Source: Rhodospirillaceae bacterium
GTDB taxonomy: Bacteria; Pseudomonadota; Alphaproteobacteria; Rhodospirillales; Rhodospirillaceae
Direction of reading: 5' to 3'
Assembly (NCBI GenBank): GCA_002737725.1
Contig: NSIP01000001.1
Coordinates: 460,921-524,920, forward strand
Length of the DNA: 64,000 bases
Shown here: positions 12,431-20,862 of the stretch, piece by piece
Layout of the letters: each line of letters opens with the position of its first letter
Position numbering within the stretch: position 1 is the first letter of the stretch
Notes under the pieces: model-generated
Told to the model about the DNA's origin: nothing
Databases searched by the model: none
The model's input: the letters and a program-made list of their open reading frames with translations, nothing else
Program-made: the position numbers and the translations under genes

Positions 12431-13660
12431 TTAGCCCACCGCGCTGCGGCGCACTTTGCGTTCGATCAGGCCCAAGTTGATGGCCACACTTTCAAAGATG
12501 CTTACGACTTTGCGCAGTTGTTCTTCGGTGTGGACCGCGCACAGGCTGCAGCGCAGCAGCGAGTACCCATACGGAGTGGCGGGTGGCAGCGCCAGGTTGA
12601 CATACACGCCAGCCTCGATCAGACCGCGCCAGAAGGCCACGGCCACTTGCGGATCGGGGGCTACAACGGCGACCACAGGCGACAGATCACTCGCGACCTT
12701 CAAGCCGATCTCGGACAAACCGCTGTGCAATACTTTAGCGTTTCTCATGAGTCGCGTCCGCAGCGCACCGCCCGATTTCACCAGGCCCAAATTGACGGTG
12801 GCGGATGCGACGACGGAAGGCGGCAACGAGGCGGTAAAAATATACGCGCGGCACACCAAGCGCAGCATGCCGAAATCAGGATAGCTCGACACCACAAAGC
12901 CGCCGACCGTTCCGACCGATTTTGAGAACGTGCCGACAATGAAATCGACATCGTCTTCGCAGCCGACTTCTTCCGGCAGGCCACGGCCATAACGACCGAG
13001 CACGCCCATGGAGTGTGCTTCGTCGCTGAGCAAGAATGTGTTGGCGTGTTTCTTTTTGACGGCCACGATCTCGGCCATCGGGGCTTTGTCGCCCAACATC
13101 GAGTAGATGCCTTCAATCACGATCAGCTTGTTGCCTGGCTTATCGACCAATCGCGCCAAGCGCTTATCTAAATCGGCGGCGTCATTGTGCTTGAAACGGA
13201 TGATCTCGGCCTGGCTGGCGCGCACGCCGTCGTAAATCGAGGCATGGCAATCGGCATCCATCAAAATGTAATCGCCGGGACCCATCAACGTCGACAGCAC
13301 GCCCGCATTGGCCAGAAAACCCGTCGAAAACACAATGGCGTGGTCTTTGTTGAAGAACTCGCACAGGGTGTTCTCAAGTTCTTTGTGACCTGAATACGTG
13401 CCATTTGCGACGCGTGAGCCTGTCGTGCCGGTCCCAAAAGCATCGAGCGCATCATGCGCAGCTTTCAAGGCTTCGGGCGCGAACGTCAGGCCCAGATAAT
13501 TGTTGGTGCCGCATAAAATGGTGCGCTTGCCAGCAATGATGGCTTCGGTTTGCGAAATTACGTCGTCCATTCTCACCTGGAACGGGTCGGCGCCATCGCC
13601 AGCCAGAATCGCGTCGCGCTGTCCCATGAGGTTCGAAAAACGGTCAAAAATACCAGGCAT
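12431..13660 (-). CDS. spt: Serine palmitoyltransferase (alpha-oxoamine synthase)
   Basis: PLP enzyme that condenses serine with an activated acyl group to 3-ketosphinganine, the first step of sphingolipid synthesis. The start is ATG 13660, with AAGGA 8 bases before it; 409 residues, normal for the family. Typical alpha-oxoamine synthase blocks: N-N-Y-L-G-L near residue 54, T-G-S-R-V-A-N-G-T-Y, D-E-A-H-S-M-G-V-L-G, and the PLP-lysine region G-T-F-S-K-S-V-G-T-V-G-G. KBL and BioF belong to the same superfamily, but the dedicated ACP, acyl-ACP ligase and reductase genes directly upstream match the Caulobacter sphingolipid operon and favour Spt. Confidence 0.85.
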   Translation of the reverse strand: MPGIFDRFSNLMGQRDAILAGDGADPFQVRMDDVISQTEAIIAGKRTILCGTNNYLGLTFAPEALKAAHDALDAFGTGTTGSRVANGTYSGHKELENTLCEFFNKDHAIVFSTGFLANAGVLSTLMGPGDYILMDADCHASIYDGVRASQAEIIRFKHNDAADLDKRLARLVDKPGNKLIVIEGIYSMLGDKAPMAEIVAVKKKHANTFLLSDEAHSMGVLGRYGRGLPEEVGCEDDVDFIVGTFSKSVGTVGGFVVSSYPDFGMLRLVCRAYIFTASLPPSVVASATVNLGLVKSGGALRTRLMRNAKVLHSGLSEIGLKVASDLSPVVAVVAPDPQVAVAFWRGLIEAGVYVNLALPPATPYGYSLLRCSLCAVHTEEQLRKVVSIFESVAINLGLIERKVRRSAVG

Positions 13661-13710
13661 CGTTTTATTCCTTTGTGTCGTACCCAAGTGAACCCGGCGT
13701 TGCAGGGCCG

Positions 13711-13977
13711 TTAGCCCCGGTCAGCCTTCACGATCTTTTCCACAGCGAGTGCGAGGTGTTTAACGGTGGTGATATCGGGCAAAATATTCATTGGTATCGA
13801 GATATCGAAACAGTCCTCGACCGTCGCTACGAACTCCATGACCACCAGGGAATCGAAATTCAGGTCTTCGCTGAACCGAGTCTCTGGCTTGAGATCCACT
13901 CCGGTCTTGTTGAGGGGGCCCAGAAGTTCATGAAGTGCGGCGAACGTGTCCGCAGATGGCTCACCGTTCGCAGTCAT
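13711..13977 (-). CDS. acpR: Dedicated acyl carrier protein for sphingolipid synthesis
   Basis: Acyl carrier protein of 88 residues from ATG 13977. A longer in-frame start upstream adds a basic, unconserved N-terminus and is rejected. The phosphopantetheine Ser is in F-D-S-L-V-V-M-E-F, followed by the acidic helix V-E-D-C-F-D-I-S-I-P, as in ACPs. It lies between cerR and spt on the same strand, the position AcpR holds in Caulobacter, where it delivers the acyl chain loaded by AcsR to Spt. It is not the housekeeping AcpP, which normally sits with fabG and fabF. Confidence 0.85.
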   Translation of the reverse strand: MTANGEPSADTFAALHELLGPLNKTGVDLKPETRFSEDLNFDSLVVMEFVATVEDCFDISIPMNILPDITTVKHLALAVEKIVKADRG

Positions 13978-14096
13978 GACTTGAGGACCAATTCGACAAA
14001 ACAAATGCGGGCTGGGCGTTTTCTTATTTCGCAAGCGCGAACGCCTCAGCTCCACGGCCCTATTGGGCGGGAATGACAGGAAAATGACAAATCAAC

Positions 14097-15062
14097 TCAG
14101 CTGTAACTCTTTAACAAACCTCGTGAAATCGCCCAATTGACGGTGTTTTTGAACCCATCCGGCAGGCTCCAGCGGGGGCTCCAGCCAGGGACTGTGGGGC
14201 CATGGGCCACCCAATTCGGGTGTAGAAGCTCAGGGATTTTATCCCAACTTAAAGTAGAGGGATTCCCCGAGATTTGCGCGAAAAGTGACCAAACCCCGCC
14301 AGCGAGATAAAGCACAGGGCTGGGCAGGGCAATCAGCCGGGGCGTCACTTTCAGGGCTTGGCCCGCGGCATTGACCACACCGGCCCAGTCGTGACCGCCG
14401 GGCTGGCCGTCATCAATCTCCAAGGGTTCGCCCGGGTCATCGCGCAAGGGCAGCAGATTCAAAATGGCCGCCACCAGATCATCAACATGAATCATCGACA
14501 GTCGGGCCTGGGCGTCGGGGGGAACAACCGCAAAGCCGCGTGCCGCCATGGTGAAGATGCGCAAGGTCTCCAGATCGCCCGGCCCATAAACCGCAGGGGG
14601 TCGAAGGATGCTGATCGACATTTTAGATGCGAAAGGCCGCAGTGCTTTTTCGCTTTCGCGCTTGCTGGCGGCGTAATTGGAAAGCCGCGGTTCACGCGCG
14701 GCCAAGGACGAGACATGAATAAAGCGCGGCGGCTCGGGCAATTCAGCAGCCATTCGGGCCAAGCGGCGCGTGCCTTCGGCATTTTGTGCCAGAAATTCAT
14801 CACGGTTCAGCGCCTTGATTGCGCCCGCCAAATGAATCACGGCGTCACAGCCTTCAACAAGGTGCCGTAACTGCAACTCATCGCTCAAAGATCCGGCCAC
14901 CCATGTGAGTGAGCCGGGCAGATCATCATCGCCTGGCGTTTGTGCACGGCGTGTCAGGGCCCTCACGTTAGCGCCGTCGCGGCGCAGAGCGCGCACTAAA
15001 TGCTGACCGATAAAGCCTGTGGCTCCGGTCACGCCAATGGTCGCGGTGGGTTGCTCGGTCAT
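14097..15062 (-). CDS. cerR: Ceramide reductase CerR (extended SDR / NAD-dependent epimerase family)
   Basis: Extended short-chain dehydrogenase of 321 residues. The N-terminal Rossmann motif is G-V-T-G-A-T-G-F-I-G (about 10-19), and the catalytic Y-A-A-S-K lies near residue 130 after V-S-S-L-A-A. In Caulobacter the equivalent gene reduces the 3-keto group of the sphingoid intermediate, after N-acylation in that bacterium. It starts 9 bp after acsR and precedes acpR and spt, so the function is inferred from operon identity as well as family. By sequence alone it could be any sugar- or lipid-type epimerase. Confidence 0.8.
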   Translation of the reverse strand: MTEQPTATIGVTGATGFIGQHLVRALRRDGANVRALTRRAQTPGDDDLPGSLTWVAGSLSDELQLRHLVEGCDAVIHLAGAIKALNRDEFLAQNAEGTRRLARMAAELPEPPRFIHVSSLAAREPRLSNYAASKRESEKALRPFASKMSISILRPPAVYGPGDLETLRIFTMAARGFAVVPPDAQARLSMIHVDDLVAAILNLLPLRDDPGEPLEIDDGQPGGHDWAGVVNAAGQALKVTPRLIALPSPVLYLAGGVWSLFAQISGNPSTLSWDKIPELLHPNWVAHGPTVPGWSPRWSLPDGFKNTVNWAISRGLLKSYS

Positions 15063-15071
15063 GGTGTGGCT

Positions 15072-16832
15072 TTAAGTATCGAGGGCAGTGATCTCGCCCG
15101 CTTCAAACATGGTTTTGGCTTTGCCGCGCGCAAGTTTACCAGAGGTCGTTTTGGGCAAGCTGCGCGGCGGCACCAACACCACATCGCACAAAATGCCAAT
15201 GGCCTCTTGCACGCGGGCTTTGATATCGGCAATCAAAGCGCCCCGTTCCTCCACATTAGCGGGTCGGCACTGGACTAAAATGGTTGGCCGCTCGTTGTCT
15301 TGGCTATCGACCAGGACAATGGCAGCGGAATCACCCGAGCGCATGCCATCCATGTGCTCGACTGTCCATTCGATGTCTTGTGGCCACACATTGCGCCCGT
15401 TGACGATCATCATGTCTTTGGCGCGGCCTACGATGAACAGTTCATAGCCCAGCCAGTAACCCAAATCGCCCGTGTCCAGCCAACCATCGATCAGTGTTTC
15501 GGCGGTGGCCCTGGGGTCGTTGTAATATCCGGTCATCACGCTGGGCCCTGAGAAGTAAACACGGCCAATCTCGCGTTGGCCCAGAACGTGCGCGTCGTCG
15601 ACATCACGAATTTCGACATTGTGATCTTTGATGACTACACCGCACCCCACAAAGGTGCGCCCCATCGGCGAGCCGTCGTTGGGAACGGGCGTCGCTAAAT
15701 GCGTGGCAAGGCCATCTTTGGCAATGTGGTCGAGTGTCATGCCGGTGAGCGGGCGTGAGAACGATACGCCCAAAACACACTCAGCCAAACCGTAGCTGCC
15801 ATTGAAGGCTAACTCTCGAAAACCGTATGGTTTGAAAGTCTCGCCGAACATCTGCATCACTTGCGGCTTAATCATTTCGCCGCCGATGCCTGCAATCCGC
15901 CAACTCGACAAATCAAGCCCCAGCGAGCCTTCGGGCATGGTTTGGACGCGGCGGGCACATAACTCGTACCCAAACGACGGCGAATAAGACATCGTCGCGC
16001 GATTCTCGCTGATCAGTCGTAGCCACGTCAGCGGACGGCGGGCGAAGTCTTCGGTCGCTAAATAATCGGTCGAGGTCTGCGAAGCCAGCACTGCCAGCAT
16101 GAAGCCCACCAGGCCCATATCGTGAAAGAAAGGCAACCATGATACGGCGCGCTGATCGGCAAAATTCTCAACGGCGTGGCTCATGGCCGAGCAGTTTTTC
16201 ATCAGCGCACGGTGCGTGACGCACACGCCAGTCGGAAAGCGCGTCGAGCCCGAACTATATTGGATGTAAGACAATTCATCAGCACGCGCTTGATGCAACT
16301 GACCACTTGTTTCGGTCCATGTCGCCACATCGGCATAGGTGCTGATGCGCTTGAGCCCCCTGCCTTCTACCGCTTCGGTGATCATGGGCAAGTAATCCGG
16401 CAATCCCAGCAACATACTGGGGGTGGCCGAGACGATTTGGTTGCGAATTTGCGCCACATACGCCTCACGCCTGCCAAAGGCTGTCGGCAAGGGCATCGGC
16501 ACCGGAATAATGCCAGCGTACTGACAGGCAAAGAAGTGGACCAGAAAATCAGGCGTATTTGCGGCCAGCAAGGCCACGCGCTCACCCGGCTTGATGCCTG
16601 AGGCTGACAACCGCAAAGCATGGTTGACGGCAGACTCTCGTAAGTCCCGAAACGGCATGACGTGCGACAATTCGCTGCGGGCCGAATAGAAGTTAAAGCC
16701 TGTCACACCGCGCGCGGCATAATCCAGCGACGCTGTCAGGGTCTCGAACTCGCCCAGAATTTTGGGCAGACCTGGATTGGCTGTGGGCGTCGGTCGTAGC
16801 GGCGGGTAGGCTGACGTAGCAGTTTTCGGCAT
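15072..16832 (-). CDS. acsR: Acyl-ACP ligase of the fatty acyl-AMP ligase type (AcsR)
   Basis: AMP-forming acyl-activating enzyme of 586 residues, predicted to load a fatty acid onto AcpR. The ATP-binding P-loop-like motif is Y-I-Q-Y-S-S-G-S-T-R-F-P-T-G-V (near 190), adenylation motifs are N-G-S-Y-G-L-A-E and W-L-D-T-G-D-L-G-Y, and the C-terminal catalytic Lys region is L-P-K-T-T-S-G-K-L-A-R. The S-S-G-S-T form and overall length fit fatty acyl-AMP ligases better than classic FadD. It is the first gene of the operon acsR-cerR-acpR-spt. The 130-bp gap to the divergent hydrolase gene should hold the operon promoter. Confidence 0.82.
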   Translation of the reverse strand: MPKTATSAYPPLRPTPTANPGLPKILGEFETLTASLDYAARGVTGFNFYSARSELSHVMPFRDLRESAVNHALRLSASGIKPGERVALLAANTPDFLVHFFACQYAGIIPVPMPLPTAFGRREAYVAQIRNQIVSATPSMLLGLPDYLPMITEAVEGRGLKRISTYADVATWTETSGQLHQARADELSYIQYSSGSTRFPTGVCVTHRALMKNCSAMSHAVENFADQRAVSWLPFFHDMGLVGFMLAVLASQTSTDYLATEDFARRPLTWLRLISENRATMSYSPSFGYELCARRVQTMPEGSLGLDLSSWRIAGIGGEMIKPQVMQMFGETFKPYGFRELAFNGSYGLAECVLGVSFSRPLTGMTLDHIAKDGLATHLATPVPNDGSPMGRTFVGCGVVIKDHNVEIRDVDDAHVLGQREIGRVYFSGPSVMTGYYNDPRATAETLIDGWLDTGDLGYWLGYELFIVGRAKDMMIVNGRNVWPQDIEWTVEHMDGMRSGDSAAIVLVDSQDNERPTILVQCRPANVEERGALIADIKARVQEAIGILCDVVLVPPRSLPKTTSGKLARGKAKTMFEAGEITALDT

Positions 16833-16965: not shown

Positions 16966-17802
16966 ATGCTCATTGATCGCGGGTTCATTCGTCTAGATGA
17001 GGGGTTGGTGCATTATCGGATGTGTGGTCAGGCTCAGGCCAGTCGATTGCCGCTTTATATGATCCATGCCTCGCCAGCTTCGGCGGCACCTTTGGTACCA
17101 CTCATGACCGAGTTTGGACAAACCCGCGTGTGTTATGCGCCCGACACATTGGGCAATGGAGATTCAGCTGGTCCGTCGCCGGATGCACCCGACATGGACT
17201 ACTACGGCGACAGCGTGGCACGCATTCTCGACAAGCTGAAGCTCGACAAAGTCGATGTCTATGGCAGTCACACGGGCGCGCACATTGCCTGCGAGTTGGC
17301 CATCCGCCACCCAAGCCGCGTGCGCAAGGTGGTGTTCGATGGCATTGGCATGTTCACGCCCGAAGATCGCGTCGATTTTTTGAAAAACTATGCTCCGGAA
17401 ATGAAGCCCGATGTTTTTGGAATGCAGTACACCTGGGCGTGGCACTTTATACGCGACCAGATGTTGCACTTTCCCTACTTCCGCCGCACCCCGGAATTCC
17501 GCCGTGGCGAAGCCATGGCCCCGCCCGAGGTCTTGCACGATATTGTTCTCGATGTACTCAAAGGACTAACGACCTATCACAAGGGTTATCGCGCAGCATT
17601 TCGACATCAAGACTTTGAGCGCATTTCACTCATTCAATGTCCGGTTTTTTGCGTCGCCAGTACAGACGATCCTCTTCAAGGCGGTGTCGACCGAGCTCAT
17701 GCCCTTGTGCGCGCAGGCGCTAAAGCCATCCTGCCCAGCGAACGCGTCCCGGGCGGGTTGCAGAAGAAGGCCGCCGCCATCATGCAGTTTATCGACGCCT
17801 GA
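16966..17802 (+). CDS. Alpha/beta-hydrolase fold protein with altered nucleophile elbow
   Basis: 278-residue alpha/beta-hydrolase fold protein. The fold markers are present: M-I-H-A-S-P-A-S-A near residue 33, D-T-L-G-N-G-D-S-A-G near 65, and the elbow V-Y-G-S-H-T-G-A-H-I-A near 105. In G-x-Nuc-x-G the nucleophile position is His instead of Ser, and no His is seen in the last 25 residues where the catalytic base usually sits. It may therefore be a non-hydrolytic member. It is preceded by a G-rich site (run of G just before the ATG), is divergent from the sphingolipid operon, and is followed after 18 bp by a DUF427 gene, probably in one transcript. Confidence 0.7.
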   Translation: MLIDRGFIRLDEGLVHYRMCGQAQASRLPLYMIHASPASAAPLVPLMTEFGQTRVCYAPDTLGNGDSAGPSPDAPDMDYYGDSVARILDKLKLDKVDVYGSHTGAHIACELAIRHPSRVRKVVFDGIGMFTPEDRVDFLKNYAPEMKPDVFGMQYTWAWHFIRDQMLHFPYFRRTPEFRRGEAMAPPEVLHDIVLDVLKGLTTYHKGYRAAFRHQDFERISLIQCPVFCVASTDDPLQGGVDRAHALVRAGAKAILPSERVPGGLQKKAAAIMQFIDA

Positions 17803-17820
17803 GGGGGGCGGCCAGTTGTC

Positions 17821-18219
17821 ATGACCGACGACATGCGAAAGAAAATTGAAGCCGCAAAGGCCAATGGTTATCGCATTGACCTGACGCCGCACATTGGCTG
17901 GGCGCGTGTCTCCTGGCGGGGGCAAGTGATCGCCGAGTCTGATCAGGCTTTGGTTTTGAACGAAACCCGTCACAATCCCGTGATCTACTTTCCCCGGGCA
18001 GACGCACAGATGTCGCTGATGCAACGTACGGCCCATCGCTCCCATTGTTCGTTCAAGGGCGATGCCAGCTATTTTAGTTTGGTGGCAGGTGAAAGTCGGG
18101 CCGAAAACGCCGTCTGGTCGTACGAAAACCCAATCTCTGAAGTTGCTGGCATCAAAGATCATCTGGCGTTTTATACCAAAGCCATGGGGGCAGACTTTGG
18201 GATCGAGGTCGAGGCCTAG
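17821..18219 (+). CDS. DUF427 domain protein
   Basis: 132-residue protein of the DUF427 family, small single-domain proteins of unknown function. Family hallmarks are present: P-V-I-Y-F-P-R-A-D near residue 52, S-H-C-S-F-K-G-D-A-S-Y-F-S-L near 74-87, and the ending W-S-Y-E-N-P-I-S-E-V-A-G-I-K-D-H-L-A-F-Y. It follows the alpha/beta-hydrolase gene by 18 bp. Its TAG stop (18217-18219) lies in the CTAG end of a dispersed repeat, so the last codons may have been reshaped by the repeat. Confidence 0.8.
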   Translation: MTDDMRKKIEAAKANGYRIDLTPHIGWARVSWRGQVIAESDQALVLNETRHNPVIYFPRADAQMSLMQRTAHRSHCSFKGDASYFSLVAGESRAENAVWSYENPISEVAGIKDHLAFYTKAMGADFGIEVEA

Positions 18220-18240: not shown

Positions 18241-18353
18241 TCCACGAGTGTAGTCACACCCCTGTGATTGGCGCTCACCCCCGCAAGGGTGTTTACTCCG
18301 TCTCAACACTGACCGTTTCATAAGACGCCTTGCAAGTGGTGCTATTGGTTCTC

Positions 18354-18689
18354 ATGTCCCCGCCCCCGATCCGCCGCGATGTTGTTGTTCGCTTGGTCCT
18401 TGCCGCTGCCAGCGCAGCGTGCCTGGCGATGACGTCGGCGCATGCGCAGGATCAGTCCAAGGCCGCGAAAGGCAAAGAGAAGTGCTGCGGCGTTGCGAAG
18501 GCTGGTGAAAATGGCTGTCAGTCGTCAAGCGTTGCGCACACGTGTGGTGGATGCTCGTTGGTTGATTACAGTGGCGAGAATTGGAAATGGGTCCCCATGG
18601 GCACCTGCGCGCAAATGGGCGGCCAAATGCAATCCTTCGACGGATTTGGGAAACTCGCGTCCATGACGCCTCAGCCTAAGCAGCGCTAA
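18354..18689 (+). CDS. bufA: Bufferin-type precursor peptide, six-Cys variant (DUF2282)
   Basis: Secreted Cys-rich precursor of the DUF2282/BufA family. ATG 18354 gives 111 residues with an N-terminal signal peptide ([19 protein letters not shown], cleavage near A-H-A/Q). The mature part has six Cys: K-C-C-G-V, N-G-C-Q, H-T-C-G-G-C and G-T-C-A-Q. It shares the order G-K-E-K-C-x-G-V-x-K-A-G-E-N-x-C ... W-K-x-V ... G-x-C-A-x-M-G-G with the next gene, which has four Cys. In bufferins such Cys are modified by an MNIO enzyme to copper-chelating heterocycles, and the peptide is thought to be periplasmic. It is first of the operon bufA-bufA-bufB-bufC. Confidence 0.78.
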
Positions 18690-18852
18690 TCGCGTTACCT
18701 TTCCGTCATCTCTGCTCATCACAAAAGTTTTATTCGAGAAGCGTCCACCATTTCCTGTAACACTGTGTCCGCTGCGTGCTATGATTGTCCTCGACGCAGG
18801 ACAGTGGGAAAACGCTCGCTGTCAACCTTTCGTTCCAACACAGGAGACTTCG

Positions 18853-19164
18853 ATGTCTGAACTCAATTTGAAAGCACTTGCCGCCGCAGTTGCCGGTGCA
18901 GTTGCCGTCGCCTCTTTTGCCGCACCTTCTTTCGCCCAAGGCATGGGTGACAGTAAAGGCAAAGAAAAATGCTATGGTGTATCCAAGGCCGGTGAAAATC
19001 AATGCGCGTCAGCCAACGGCTCGCACAGTTGCCAAGCTCAATCCAAAGTCGACCTCGACGGCAACGAATGGAAGTACGTCGAAGCTGGCTCTTGCGCCAA
19101 GATGGGCGGCAAGATCCAAGCCTTCCAAGGCAAAGGCACGCCAATGAAGAAAAATGGCGGTTGA
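18853..19164 (+). CDS. bufA: Bufferin-type precursor peptide, four-Cys form (DUF2282)
   Basis: Second DUF2282/BufA precursor, 103 residues from ATG 18853 with AGGAG 7 bases before it; an upstream in-frame start is ignored. Signal peptide: [21 protein letters not shown]. The mature part has the canonical four Cys in K-C-Y-G-V, N-Q-C-A-S, H-S-C-Q-A and G-S-C-A-K-M-G-G. It lies 163 bp after the first precursor and 50 bp before the MNIO gene. By homology to Caulobacter bufferins it would be exported after modification and protect against copper; the metal is inferred. Confidence 0.85.
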
Positions 19165-19214
19165 TCCGCGCTTCTTTCTGAATTGATGACCGGCGCTTTC
19201 ACAACATTGATCAC

Positions 19215-20111
19215 ATGAACGCGTCTGCGACGTTCTCTCTGAAGCAAAGCCCGATTCCCGCTGCGGCAGGGATCGGGCTTCGTCTCCAGCACTTAAATGA
19301 AATCGCCTCGCAAGCCGATGACGCGCCGCCTGTCGCTTCGTGGTTGGAAATCCACAGCGAAACTTTCCTCAATGCGGGCGGACCTCGGCTGGTGATGTTG
19401 CAGGAGGTGCGTAAACGCCATCCCATCAGTTGTCATGGCGTCGGTTTGTCGCTGGGCTCTGCCCAAGGCCTCGACCCCGCACACCTGAAACGACTGGCAA
19501 AGTTATTCGACCGCGTCAAACCAGCACTGTTATCCGAACATCTGGCCTGGTCAGTTGTTGATGGTGCCTATCTGAACGATTTGTTGCCGCTGCCTTATAA
19601 CGATGAAATGCTCGCTGTTGTCAGCGCCAATGTTTCGCGCGCACAGGATTTTTTTGGTCAGCAATTGTTGGTCGAGAACCCTTCATCGTATCTCAGCTTT
19701 AATGCATCGACGATGCCCGAATGGGATTTCTTGGCGCGGTTGGTGCAAAACACCGGCTGCGGCCTTTTGCTTGACGTTAACAATGTCTACGTCAGCGCCG
19801 CGAATAATGCATTCAGCGCTGAAGACTATCTGGCGTCCGTCCCTTCGGATGTGGTGGGCGAAATTCATTTGGCGGGCCATAGCATCGAAGTTGAGGGTGA
19901 CGACCGCGTGCTTGTAGATACTCATAGTACGTATGTTTGTGATCCGGTGTGGGGACTTTATCGCGACGTAATCGCGCGCATCGGGGCCCGACCCACACTC
20001 ATCGAGTGGGACATGGACATTCCTGCCTTGTCCGAATTGCAACACGAAGCGACCCGCGCTCAAGCGGTGATGGATGCCCGTCAACCACAGGATCAAGCCT
20101 GTGTGGCTTGA
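19215..20111 (+). CDS. bufB: MNIO-family (DUF692) peptide-modifying oxidase BufB
   Basis: Multinuclear non-heme iron-dependent oxidase (MNIO, formerly DUF692), a TIM-barrel enzyme that oxidises Cys in RiPP precursors. Metal-ligand and core motifs: W-L-E-I-H-S-E near residue 43, H-G-V-G-L-S-L-G-S near 74, S-E-H-L-A-W near 107, L-V-E-N-P-S-S-Y near 153, L-L-D-V-N-N-V-Y near 180, G-E-I-H-L-A-G-H near 215, D-T-H-S near 233 and L-I-E-W-D near 258. The 298-residue length is usual. The two precursor genes lie just upstream, and the downstream bufC start overlaps its end by 38 bases, so translation is probably coupled. Confidence 0.9.
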   Translation: MNASATFSLKQSPIPAAAGIGLRLQHLNEIASQADDAPPVASWLEIHSETFLNAGGPRLVMLQEVRKRHPISCHGVGLSLGSAQGLDPAHLKRLAKLFDRVKPALLSEHLAWSVVDGAYLNDLLPLPYNDEMLAVVSANVSRAQDFFGQQLLVENPSSYLSFNASTMPEWDFLARLVQNTGCGLLLDVNNVYVSAANNAFSAEDYLASVPSDVVGEIHLAGHSIEVEGDDRVLVDTHSTYVCDPVWGLYRDVIARIGARPTLIEWDMDIPALSELQHEATRAQAVMDARQPQDQACVA

Positions 20112-20862
20112 GACGCAACGGGCCTTTCGCGCCACCGTTACTGGCGTTGATGATGCTATCGCGCCCCAGGCGCACAGCGCGCATGGGACGCTTGCACAAC
20201 GTGTTGCGGTTTACCGAAACACAGTTCAGCAAAGCCTGATTGATGTTCTCGCCTCAGCATTCCCCGCTGTTCAGCGAATTGTCGGCGTGCGATTCTTTTC
20301 TGCCTTAGCCCGTGACTTCGTACGGAGCCACTTACCCGATGTTCCGCAGCTATCCGTTTATGGCGTAAAATTTCCCGACTTCATCGCAACGCACAAGCGT
20401 TTATCTGACCTGCAGTATCTCGCTGATGTCGCCCGTTTGGAGTGGGCCCGCGGTGAATCCTACTTTGCAGCGGATGCCGCGCCGCTCGATCTGGCTGGAC
20501 TGGCCGCGATTGCGCCTGAGCGCCTCGCATCGGTCATCTTTACGCTGCATCCGGCGACGCGACTCGTTGTCTCGCCCCATGCCATTCACCGAGTCTGGAT
20601 GGTGAATCAACCCGACGTGGTTGATGTCCCTGCGATTGATATCGGAATTGCAGAGCGTGTGATCCTGACGCGCCCACACTACGCGGTGATGGTCCGTTTG
20701 ATTGCGCCCGCCGATGCCGCATTTGTTGCAGCTTTGAATCGCAAGCTCTCCTTGGGCGCGGCTGCAGGCGAAGCGCTGAGCGTTGATCCTGCATTTAATC
20801 TTCAAGCCGTGCTGCAAGACCACTTTATTCACGGCACCTTCTCGACCGTTCAGACAGAATAA
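20074..20862 (+). CDS. bufC: BufC, DUF2063 partner of the MNIO enzyme
   Basis: 262-residue DUF2063 protein, the usual partner of bufferin MNIO enzymes. The N-terminal half has the DUF2063 hallmark R-V-A-V-Y-R-N-T-V-Q-Q-S-L-I-D-V-L-A-S-A-F-P-A-V near residue 43, F-V-R-S-H-L-P near 82, and Y-L-A-D-V-A-R-L-E-W near 115. The C-terminal half is thought to be an RRE-like, precursor-binding domain. It likely presents the precursor leader to BufB in the cytoplasm. It ends exactly next to the convergent Rieske gene. No DoxX or other common third partner is present here. Confidence 0.85.
   Translation: MPVNHRIKPVWLETQRAFRATVTGVDDAIAPQAHSAHGTLAQRVAVYRNTVQQSLIDVLASAFPAVQRIVGVRFFSALARDFVRSHLPDVPQLSVYGVKFPDFIATHKRLSDLQYLADVARLEWARGESYFAADAAPLDLAGLAAIAPERLASVIFTLHPATRLVVSPHAIHRVWMVNQPDVVDVPAIDIGIAERVILTRPHYAVMVRLIAPADAAFVAALNRKLSLGAAAGEALSVDPAFNLQAVLQDHFIHGTFSTVQTE

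Follow-up and report, generated by a model that had tools for sequence, protein, structure and literature searches.

Bufferins of the Buf1 type are described with four conserved cysteines; of these, the outer two are joined in a disulfide and the central ones undergo modification, giving a product that binds periplasmic copper (Antoine et al. 2025, PMC12452194). Related MNIO enzymes take 4 Da off each cysteine and thereby form 5-thiooxazoles, and FonBC favors a small residue after the cysteine (PMC12668002). The signal peptide serves as the leader (PMC13419390, citing Junger et al. 2026). In the Buf1 operons of Caulobacter (CC3254-CC3257 and CC2907-CC2905), the genes follow each other in the order precursor, MNIO, DUF2063 protein (PMC3511200). 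Tandem precursors, as well as genomes in which several precursors are served by one MNIO pair, have already been published, and it is regarded as an open question whether one such pair modifies several precursors (PMC12452194). Here we describe a Buf1 operon in a 64,000-nucleotide stretch of DNA from a Rhodospirillaceae bacterium (assembly GCA_002737725.1, contig NSIP01000001.1, positions 460,921 to 524,920; the whole stretch is called the window). The operon has a first and a second precursor gene, t1 and t2. As judged from sequence comparison, t1 represents a small lineage, so far found in one genus only, in which a cysteine has been added beside a residue that is normally heterocyclized.

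The locus has the gene order of the Caulobacter operons and differs from them in having two precursors and neither DoxX nor NrsF, in the five to six mature cysteines of t1 in the genus of the window, and in a conserved upstream element different from the sigma-F promoter of Caulobacter (GTAACC-N16-CGAA, which was not searched for here). With the Buf2 bufferins (BUF_6/12Cys), t1 shares six cysteines and the MNIO/DUF2063 type of maturation. However, t1 belongs to DUF2282 and gives no hit with the NCBIfam model BufA2 (NF050166) at E ≤ 1, and t2 reaches 28.7 bits at a cut-off of 60. The EGKCG captophorins/oxazolins (HvfA, FonA) are likewise thiooxazole peptides made by an MNIO and a PME1 protein, with several heterocycles each (PMC12668002). 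In contrast to these, EGKCG repeats are absent here, and the enzyme fits the BufB model better than the HvfB model (363.1 versus 229.6 bits, the latter under the HvfB cut-off).

Results

The locus (18354-20862, forward strand) is an ordinary type of copper-buffering bufferin operon that carries two precursor genes, not one, and all four genes are codirectional. Both t1 (18354-18689) and t2 (18853-19164) match Buf1/DUF2282 (PF10048, 60.7 and 76.5 bits, respectively; cut-off, 22.4). They are followed by bufB (19215-20111), which encodes an MNIO (DUF692) bufferin maturase, and by bufC (20074-20862), which overlaps bufB by 38 nucleotides and encodes a DUF2063 (PME-type 1) partner protein (PF09836, 77.0 bits; cut-off, 27.2). 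BufB exceeds both the Pfam cut-off of 25 (PF05114, MbnB_TglH_ChrH, 337.5 bits) and the equivalog cut-off of 310 of the NCBIfam model MNIO_BufB (NF050167). A preliminary description of this DNA had proposed a bufferin-type operon of two DUF2282 precursors, an MNIO, and a DUF2063 protein and had suggested profile searches for these families; the searches found every gene at its proposed position with a Pfam match above the cut-off and placed both small proteins inside DUF2282.

The closest solved structure to BufB by sequence is 3bww (E = 4.4e-36). In an alignment of 20 rows (window plus 19 homologs), 25 His/Asp/Glu/Asn/Gln/Cys positions are invariant, including H74, H109, E154, N155, D187, N190, H218, H222, D235, H237, E264, and D266; presumably, the metal ligands and the base are among them. 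BufC has 262 residues, the length given in the literature for the two-domain form with DUF2063 and RRE. An RRE half is not supported by the sequence (score under the NF050145 cut-off, no match in a PDB sequence search), and BufC scores under the NCBIfam HvfC cut-off. None of the NCBIfam precursor models reaches its own cut-off for t1 or t2, and a sequence search found no solved DUF2282 structure. The presumed Sec signal peptides were judged by the hydrophobic stretch (2.29 for t1 and 2.16 for t2; mean of the set, 2.06).

The window genome (2.92 Mb in 37 contigs, 98.33% complete) encodes one MNIO, as does each of the seven relatives checked, and no DUF2282 protein above the cut-off other than t1 and t2. 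A weak third match (contig C18, 8016-8093, E = 0.045), under the cut-off, is a different Cys-rich protein and was rejected; we take it to resemble a high-potential iron-sulfur protein. The preliminary description had noted the lack of a DoxX gene. Since PF07681 has 0 matches in the window genome, DoxX is absent genome-wide as far as the assembly reaches; in Buf1 clusters, this gene is common without being required.

In both precursors, the four canonical cysteines are spaced 11/9/21. Mature t2 has these four (C40, C51, C60, C81), and mature t1 has six (C44, C45, C55, C64, C67, C85), with one more inside the presumed signal peptide, which bears out the proposed counts of six versus four. The extra cysteines had been put forward as one set, a K-C-C and a C-G-G-C motif, and of these only the second is shared by the genus. 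C67 sits three residues past canonical Cys3 in the motif HTCGGCS; its equivalent is kept in all five t1 copies of the genus (window genome, G000, and the same-genus genomes G001 to G004), always with Gly before and Ser after it, and HTCGGC is invariant. The sixth cysteine, C45, is confined to the window: the three relatives with a readable N terminus have KCF, KCY, and KCY, and the codons TGC TGC of the window stand against TGT TTT in G004. Hence, the extra cysteine of the C67 type is a trait of the genus in all five genomes seen, whereas C45 belongs to the window alone. An aromatic residue normally stands in the position of C45, directly after Cys1, and the exchange is probably neutral or peculiar to this genome. 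Of the supposedly two diverged precursors, only t1 is divergent; t2 is an ordinary Buf1.

How unusual t1 is can be read from a survey of DUF2282 proteins from the own genome, 60 relatives, and the best matches from a class sample of 385 genomes and a phylum sample of 398 genomes. The survey consists of listed matches, mostly the best among a larger number, and individually fetched loci, and after merging of identical cores, 146 hits gave 117 distinct copies. Exactly four cysteines from Cys1 on are present in 111 of them. The other six are the t1 of the window (six cysteines), the t1 of three relatives (five), the t1 of one more relative, which is incomplete at the end of its contig but still shows CGGC, and a truncated stray copy (three); more than four cysteines occur in 0 of the 112 non-t1 copies among the loci surveyed. 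All 111 copies with four cysteines have a first spacing of 11; the second is 9, 8, or 7 (47, 37, and 27 copies), and the third is 21 in 103. The place of the extra cysteine (Cys3 + 3) is taken by Thr (56 copies), Gln (38), or other residues (17). A small residue (G, A, S, C, T) follows Cys2 in 70%, Cys3 in 95%, Cys4 in 39%, and Cys1 in 0%; after Cys1, all 111 have Tyr, Phe, or Trp, a rule that fails in both copies of a tandem locus of another family (L157; Ala).

Furthermore, 84,980 species genomes were scanned for two t1 motifs, S[GV][AS]HTCGGC and GE[ND]WKWV. This search, which misses variants of the two motifs, yielded four confirmed loci, all in metagenome-assembled genomes of the same genus. 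Among the papers listed in literature searches, none mentions a Buf1 with five or six cysteines in its title or at the beginning of its abstract. Tandem DUF2282 genes as such are found four more times in other families among the matches listed (L093, L155, L156, L157); in L093 and L157, two adjacent genes lie directly before bufBC as in the window, but all eight copies of the four tandems (six of them beyond the 117 of the survey) have the four core cysteines only. In L155 and L156, the signal peptides look lipoprotein-like by eye, and the 4.0 and 4.2 kb examined contain no match to bufB.

A tree was computed from 31 precursor cores (rows cut to 75 residues, hand-picked class outgroups, and the G003 t1 omitted because the G003 contig ends within t1). 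The t1 copies are monophyletic in it with a support of 100/95. Their sister is the only bufB-linked precursor of G022, a genome of another genus of the family (97/93). Its HTCGGL, as compared with HTCGGC in t1, suggests that Leu was exchanged for Cys in the ancestor of the genus. The position of t2 is weakly resolved; by identity, it is nearest to the single bufB-linked precursors of G020 (75%) and G036 (65%), to which t1 is 49% and 57% identical. Stray four-Cys copies remote from bufB form a third group (87/90).

At the bufBC locus itself, a t2-like precursor stands alone in G020 and G036, t1 stands alone in G001, and both are present in the window, G002, G003, and G004. The order in G001 is hydrolase, t1, bufB, bufC, and t1 is the only bufB-linked precursor of this assembly (88% complete), which has one stray four-Cys copy elsewhere (C372). 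In the BufB tree (a 161-residue fragment, L057, was dropped), the genus is supported with 100/98, and G001 and G003 form a group within it (90/86); the simplest reading is therefore that G001 has lost t2. Both flanks of the operon (an alpha/beta hydrolase and/or DUF427 gene before, a Rieske gene after) are kept in G002, G004, and G020, and the upstream side is kept in G028 and G036; G001 has the hydrolase without DUF427, and G022 has none of these genes in the 6 kb examined. That t1 and t2 are each the sole bufB-linked precursor somewhere is the best evidence obtained here that both are BufBC substrates, which, on this comparative ground, they probably are.

Selection was estimated within the genus by the Nei-Gojobori method, with the cut G003 t1 excluded. 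The ratios of nonsynonymous to synonymous substitution (dN/dS) were 0.08 to 0.20 for t1 (five of six pairs computable), 0.05 to 0.19 for t2 (six of six), 0.07 to 0.13 for bufB, and 0.09 to 0.24 for bufC (eight of ten each); the values are rough because every computable dS is at least 1.23, near saturation. Thus, t1 and t2 are both under purifying selection, and t1 is constrained about as strongly as its neighbors.

Upstream of t1, the four readable genomes of the genus have a palindromic element, TCACA-N4-TGTGA-TT (18254-18269, forward strand), followed by GGTGTTTA, which in the window is part of the block GGTGTTTACT (18288-18297, forward strand), a candidate −10 or regulator site. The palindrome is a putative operator of a regulator. 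The 16 bases TCACANNNNTGTGATT occur once in the 2.92 Mb of the own genome and not at all in the backward control; with one mismatch to TCACANNNCTKTGATT, there are 10 sites versus 1 in the control. Sites with up to two mismatches to TCACANNNCTKTGATT lie upstream of 19 of 99 bufB-linked and 0 of 18 unlinked DUF2282 genes (Fisher P = 0.041; 0.5 per 117 expected from shuffles), a comparison of related sequences with single-base shuffles in which 3 of the 18 unlinked genes have less than 400 nucleotides of downstream sequence. The other comparisons were not significant: up to one mismatch to TCACANNNCTKTGATT, 8 of 99 versus 0 of 18 (P = 0.36); bare palindrome, 10 linked versus 0 unlinked (P = 0.36); and palindrome with one mismatch, 28 versus 2 (P = 0.15).

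A degenerate copy of the element is found upstream of t2 (18719-18734, forward strand; two mismatches in the window). In G002 and G004, this related block (TCACAAAACTTTGATTCGAGA) is exact to TCACANNNCTKTGATT, and t2 is also preceded by CCTGTAACA; no copy is recognizable in G003. Before t2 there is also a sigma-70-like site, GTAACA-17-TATGAT (18757-18785, forward strand; 9 of 12 matches; one found versus 0.3 expected in shuffles), of which the TGTAACA part is kept in G002 and G004 and the TATGAT part is not. The genes t1 and t2 may be expressed separately, with t2-bufB-bufC also transcribed from its own putative promoter. The sigma-F/NrsF route of Caulobacter is unlikely in the genus, since G000 to G004 have no NrsF.

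In other genera, TCACA-N4-TGTGA also precedes bufB-linked DUF2282 genes (L020, L022, L023, L127, and others), and in several loci (L020, L022, L023, L027, L029, L046) the palindrome is followed by CTATNAT. A wider regulon is not claimed: nine one-mismatch sites and an additional exact TCACANNNNTGTGATT in G004 have no evident metal gene beside them, as judged by visual inspection of the open reading frames. Two or three of the candidates (L142, L145, L148) lie directly before genes.

The operon is preceded in the window by alpha/beta hydrolase and DUF427 genes (16966-18219), which are syntenic in several genera of the family. Farther upstream, on the reverse strand (12431-16832), four genes in a row form a probable bacterial sphingolipid (ceramide) locus; they encode a serine palmitoyltransferase (NF047599, 588.6 bits; cut-off, 500), an acyl carrier protein, an NAD-dependent epimerase-like protein, and a fatty acyl-AMP ligase (NF006624, 728.5 bits; cut-off, 600), which would be linked by this pathway. 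Stray DUF2282 genes with four cysteines are found in three relatives away from bufBC, each followed at a distance of 0.2 to 0.35 kb by a codirectional DoxX match: G004 (C8, 29900-30599; L040, L087), G002 (C44, 31902-32415; L037, L088; DUF2282 truncated), and G020 (C56, 6278-7007; L048, L086). In these relatives, DoxX seems to accompany the stray gene; the window genome has neither.

Discussion

Our analysis favors, with fair confidence, a Buf1 operon for periplasmic copper buffering in which one BufBC pair would serve two paralogous precursors. Gene content, families, conservation, selection, synteny, lineage, and the upstream element were computed here; the thiooxazole chemistry, the disulfide, copper, and the role of the leader come from published work on other bufferins and their relatives. 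In this model, t1 and t2 would each carry a Sec signal peptide that also acts as leader. Together with BufC, BufB would oxidize the central cysteines to thiooxazoles in the cytoplasm (C55 and C64 in t1, C51 and C60 in t2). After export and cleavage of the signal peptide, the first and last cysteines would form a disulfide, and the heterocycles would bind copper. According to the preliminary description, a single enzyme might act on two substrates that differ in their cysteine patterns, and the comparison supports this suggestion: the single MNIO, the loci with a sole precursor, and purifying selection on both genes all point that way.

In t1, C67 could be a third metal ligand beside C55 and C64, whether it is converted to another thiooxazole or remains a free thiol. 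That t1 is modified we consider likely; for a part of C67 in metal binding, the chances appear evenly balanced. The further-reaching version, in which BufBC makes a third thiooxazole at the CGGC cysteine and the leader of t1 has changed together with its core, is put forward tentatively. The extra cysteine looks modifiable because it has Gly before and Ser after it in all five copies; a small following residue is a context accepted by one MNIO that forms thiooxazoles.

Several observations speak against the favored model. The argument from small residues is soft, since DUF2282 precursors show little conservation around their cysteines and have one modified Cys-Tyr site (PMC12668002). C55 is followed by Gln in t1, where Ala is usual, and Gln is found there in 18 of the 111 ordinary copies. 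AlphaFold models reach a mean pLDDT (predicted local distance difference test) of 51.0 for t1 and 51.6 for t2 (eight sequences each), and C67 cannot be placed in them. The near saturation of dS makes dN/dS rough, and the assemblies are fragmented (37 contigs in the window genome, about 430 in G001, and about 440 in G003). Finally, none of the four readable t1 copies has the signal peptide stretch AAAVAGAV. In the family, 8 of 19 bufB-linked copies with four cysteines contain it, the t2 of the window among them; should it be the leader contact, t1 might be poorly accepted as a substrate. This worry is countered by the rarity of AAAVAGAV outside the family, where only 2 of the 75 linked copies have it, and by G022, whose sole linked precursor also lacks it.

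The diverged signal peptide leads to the strongest alternative, that t1 stays unmodified, is exported as a thiol peptide, and serves another purpose in the periplasm, with t2 as the only true substrate of BufBC. Partial precursor modification in genomes with several precursors is indeed allowed for by Antoine et al. (PMC12452194). However, t1 is the only bufB-adjacent precursor in G001, the sister lineage in G022 likewise has a sole linked precursor, and the canonical cysteine spacing of t1 is intact; we regard this alternative as unlikely. Somewhat less probable still is that the operon is directed at a different metal or stress, and not at copper, or that t1 and t2 divide metals between them. 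The sigma-F-controlled DUF2282 operons of Caulobacter respond to chromate and cadmium (PMC3511200), and it is imaginable that the C-x-x-C of t1 suits other soft metals, but the characterized Buf1 binds copper (PMC12452194).

A purely structural role of the extra cysteines, with a second disulfide between C45 and C67 and unaltered metal binding, would agree with the even number of mature cysteines in the window t1. Such a bond is conceivable in the window alone, because the other three readable t1 copies keep C67 and have Phe or Tyr at the place of C45, and we consider it very improbable. That t1 is a functionless, decaying duplicate might be read from its greater divergence within the genus (57 to 78% identity versus 65 to 89% for t2, in sets of genomes that are not the same four) but is hardly credible given its low dN/dS, four complete copies without stop or frameshift, the conserved upstream element, the invariant HTCGGC, and its retention as the only linked precursor in G001.

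In sum, one BufBC pair serving t1 and t2 remains the preferred model. What is new here is the extra cysteine of t1; tandem precursors behind one MNIO were known, and the general picture of bufferins is left unchanged. Since Buf1 is very strict in its four cysteines, t1, together with an ordinary paralog and the same enzyme, offers a natural test of how an MNIO chooses its cysteines, and the pair also tests how metal binding depends on the heterocycle number. If t1 is a Buf1 with three modified sites, one enzyme in one operon would give rise to two periplasmic metallophores that differ in stoichiometry or metal preference.

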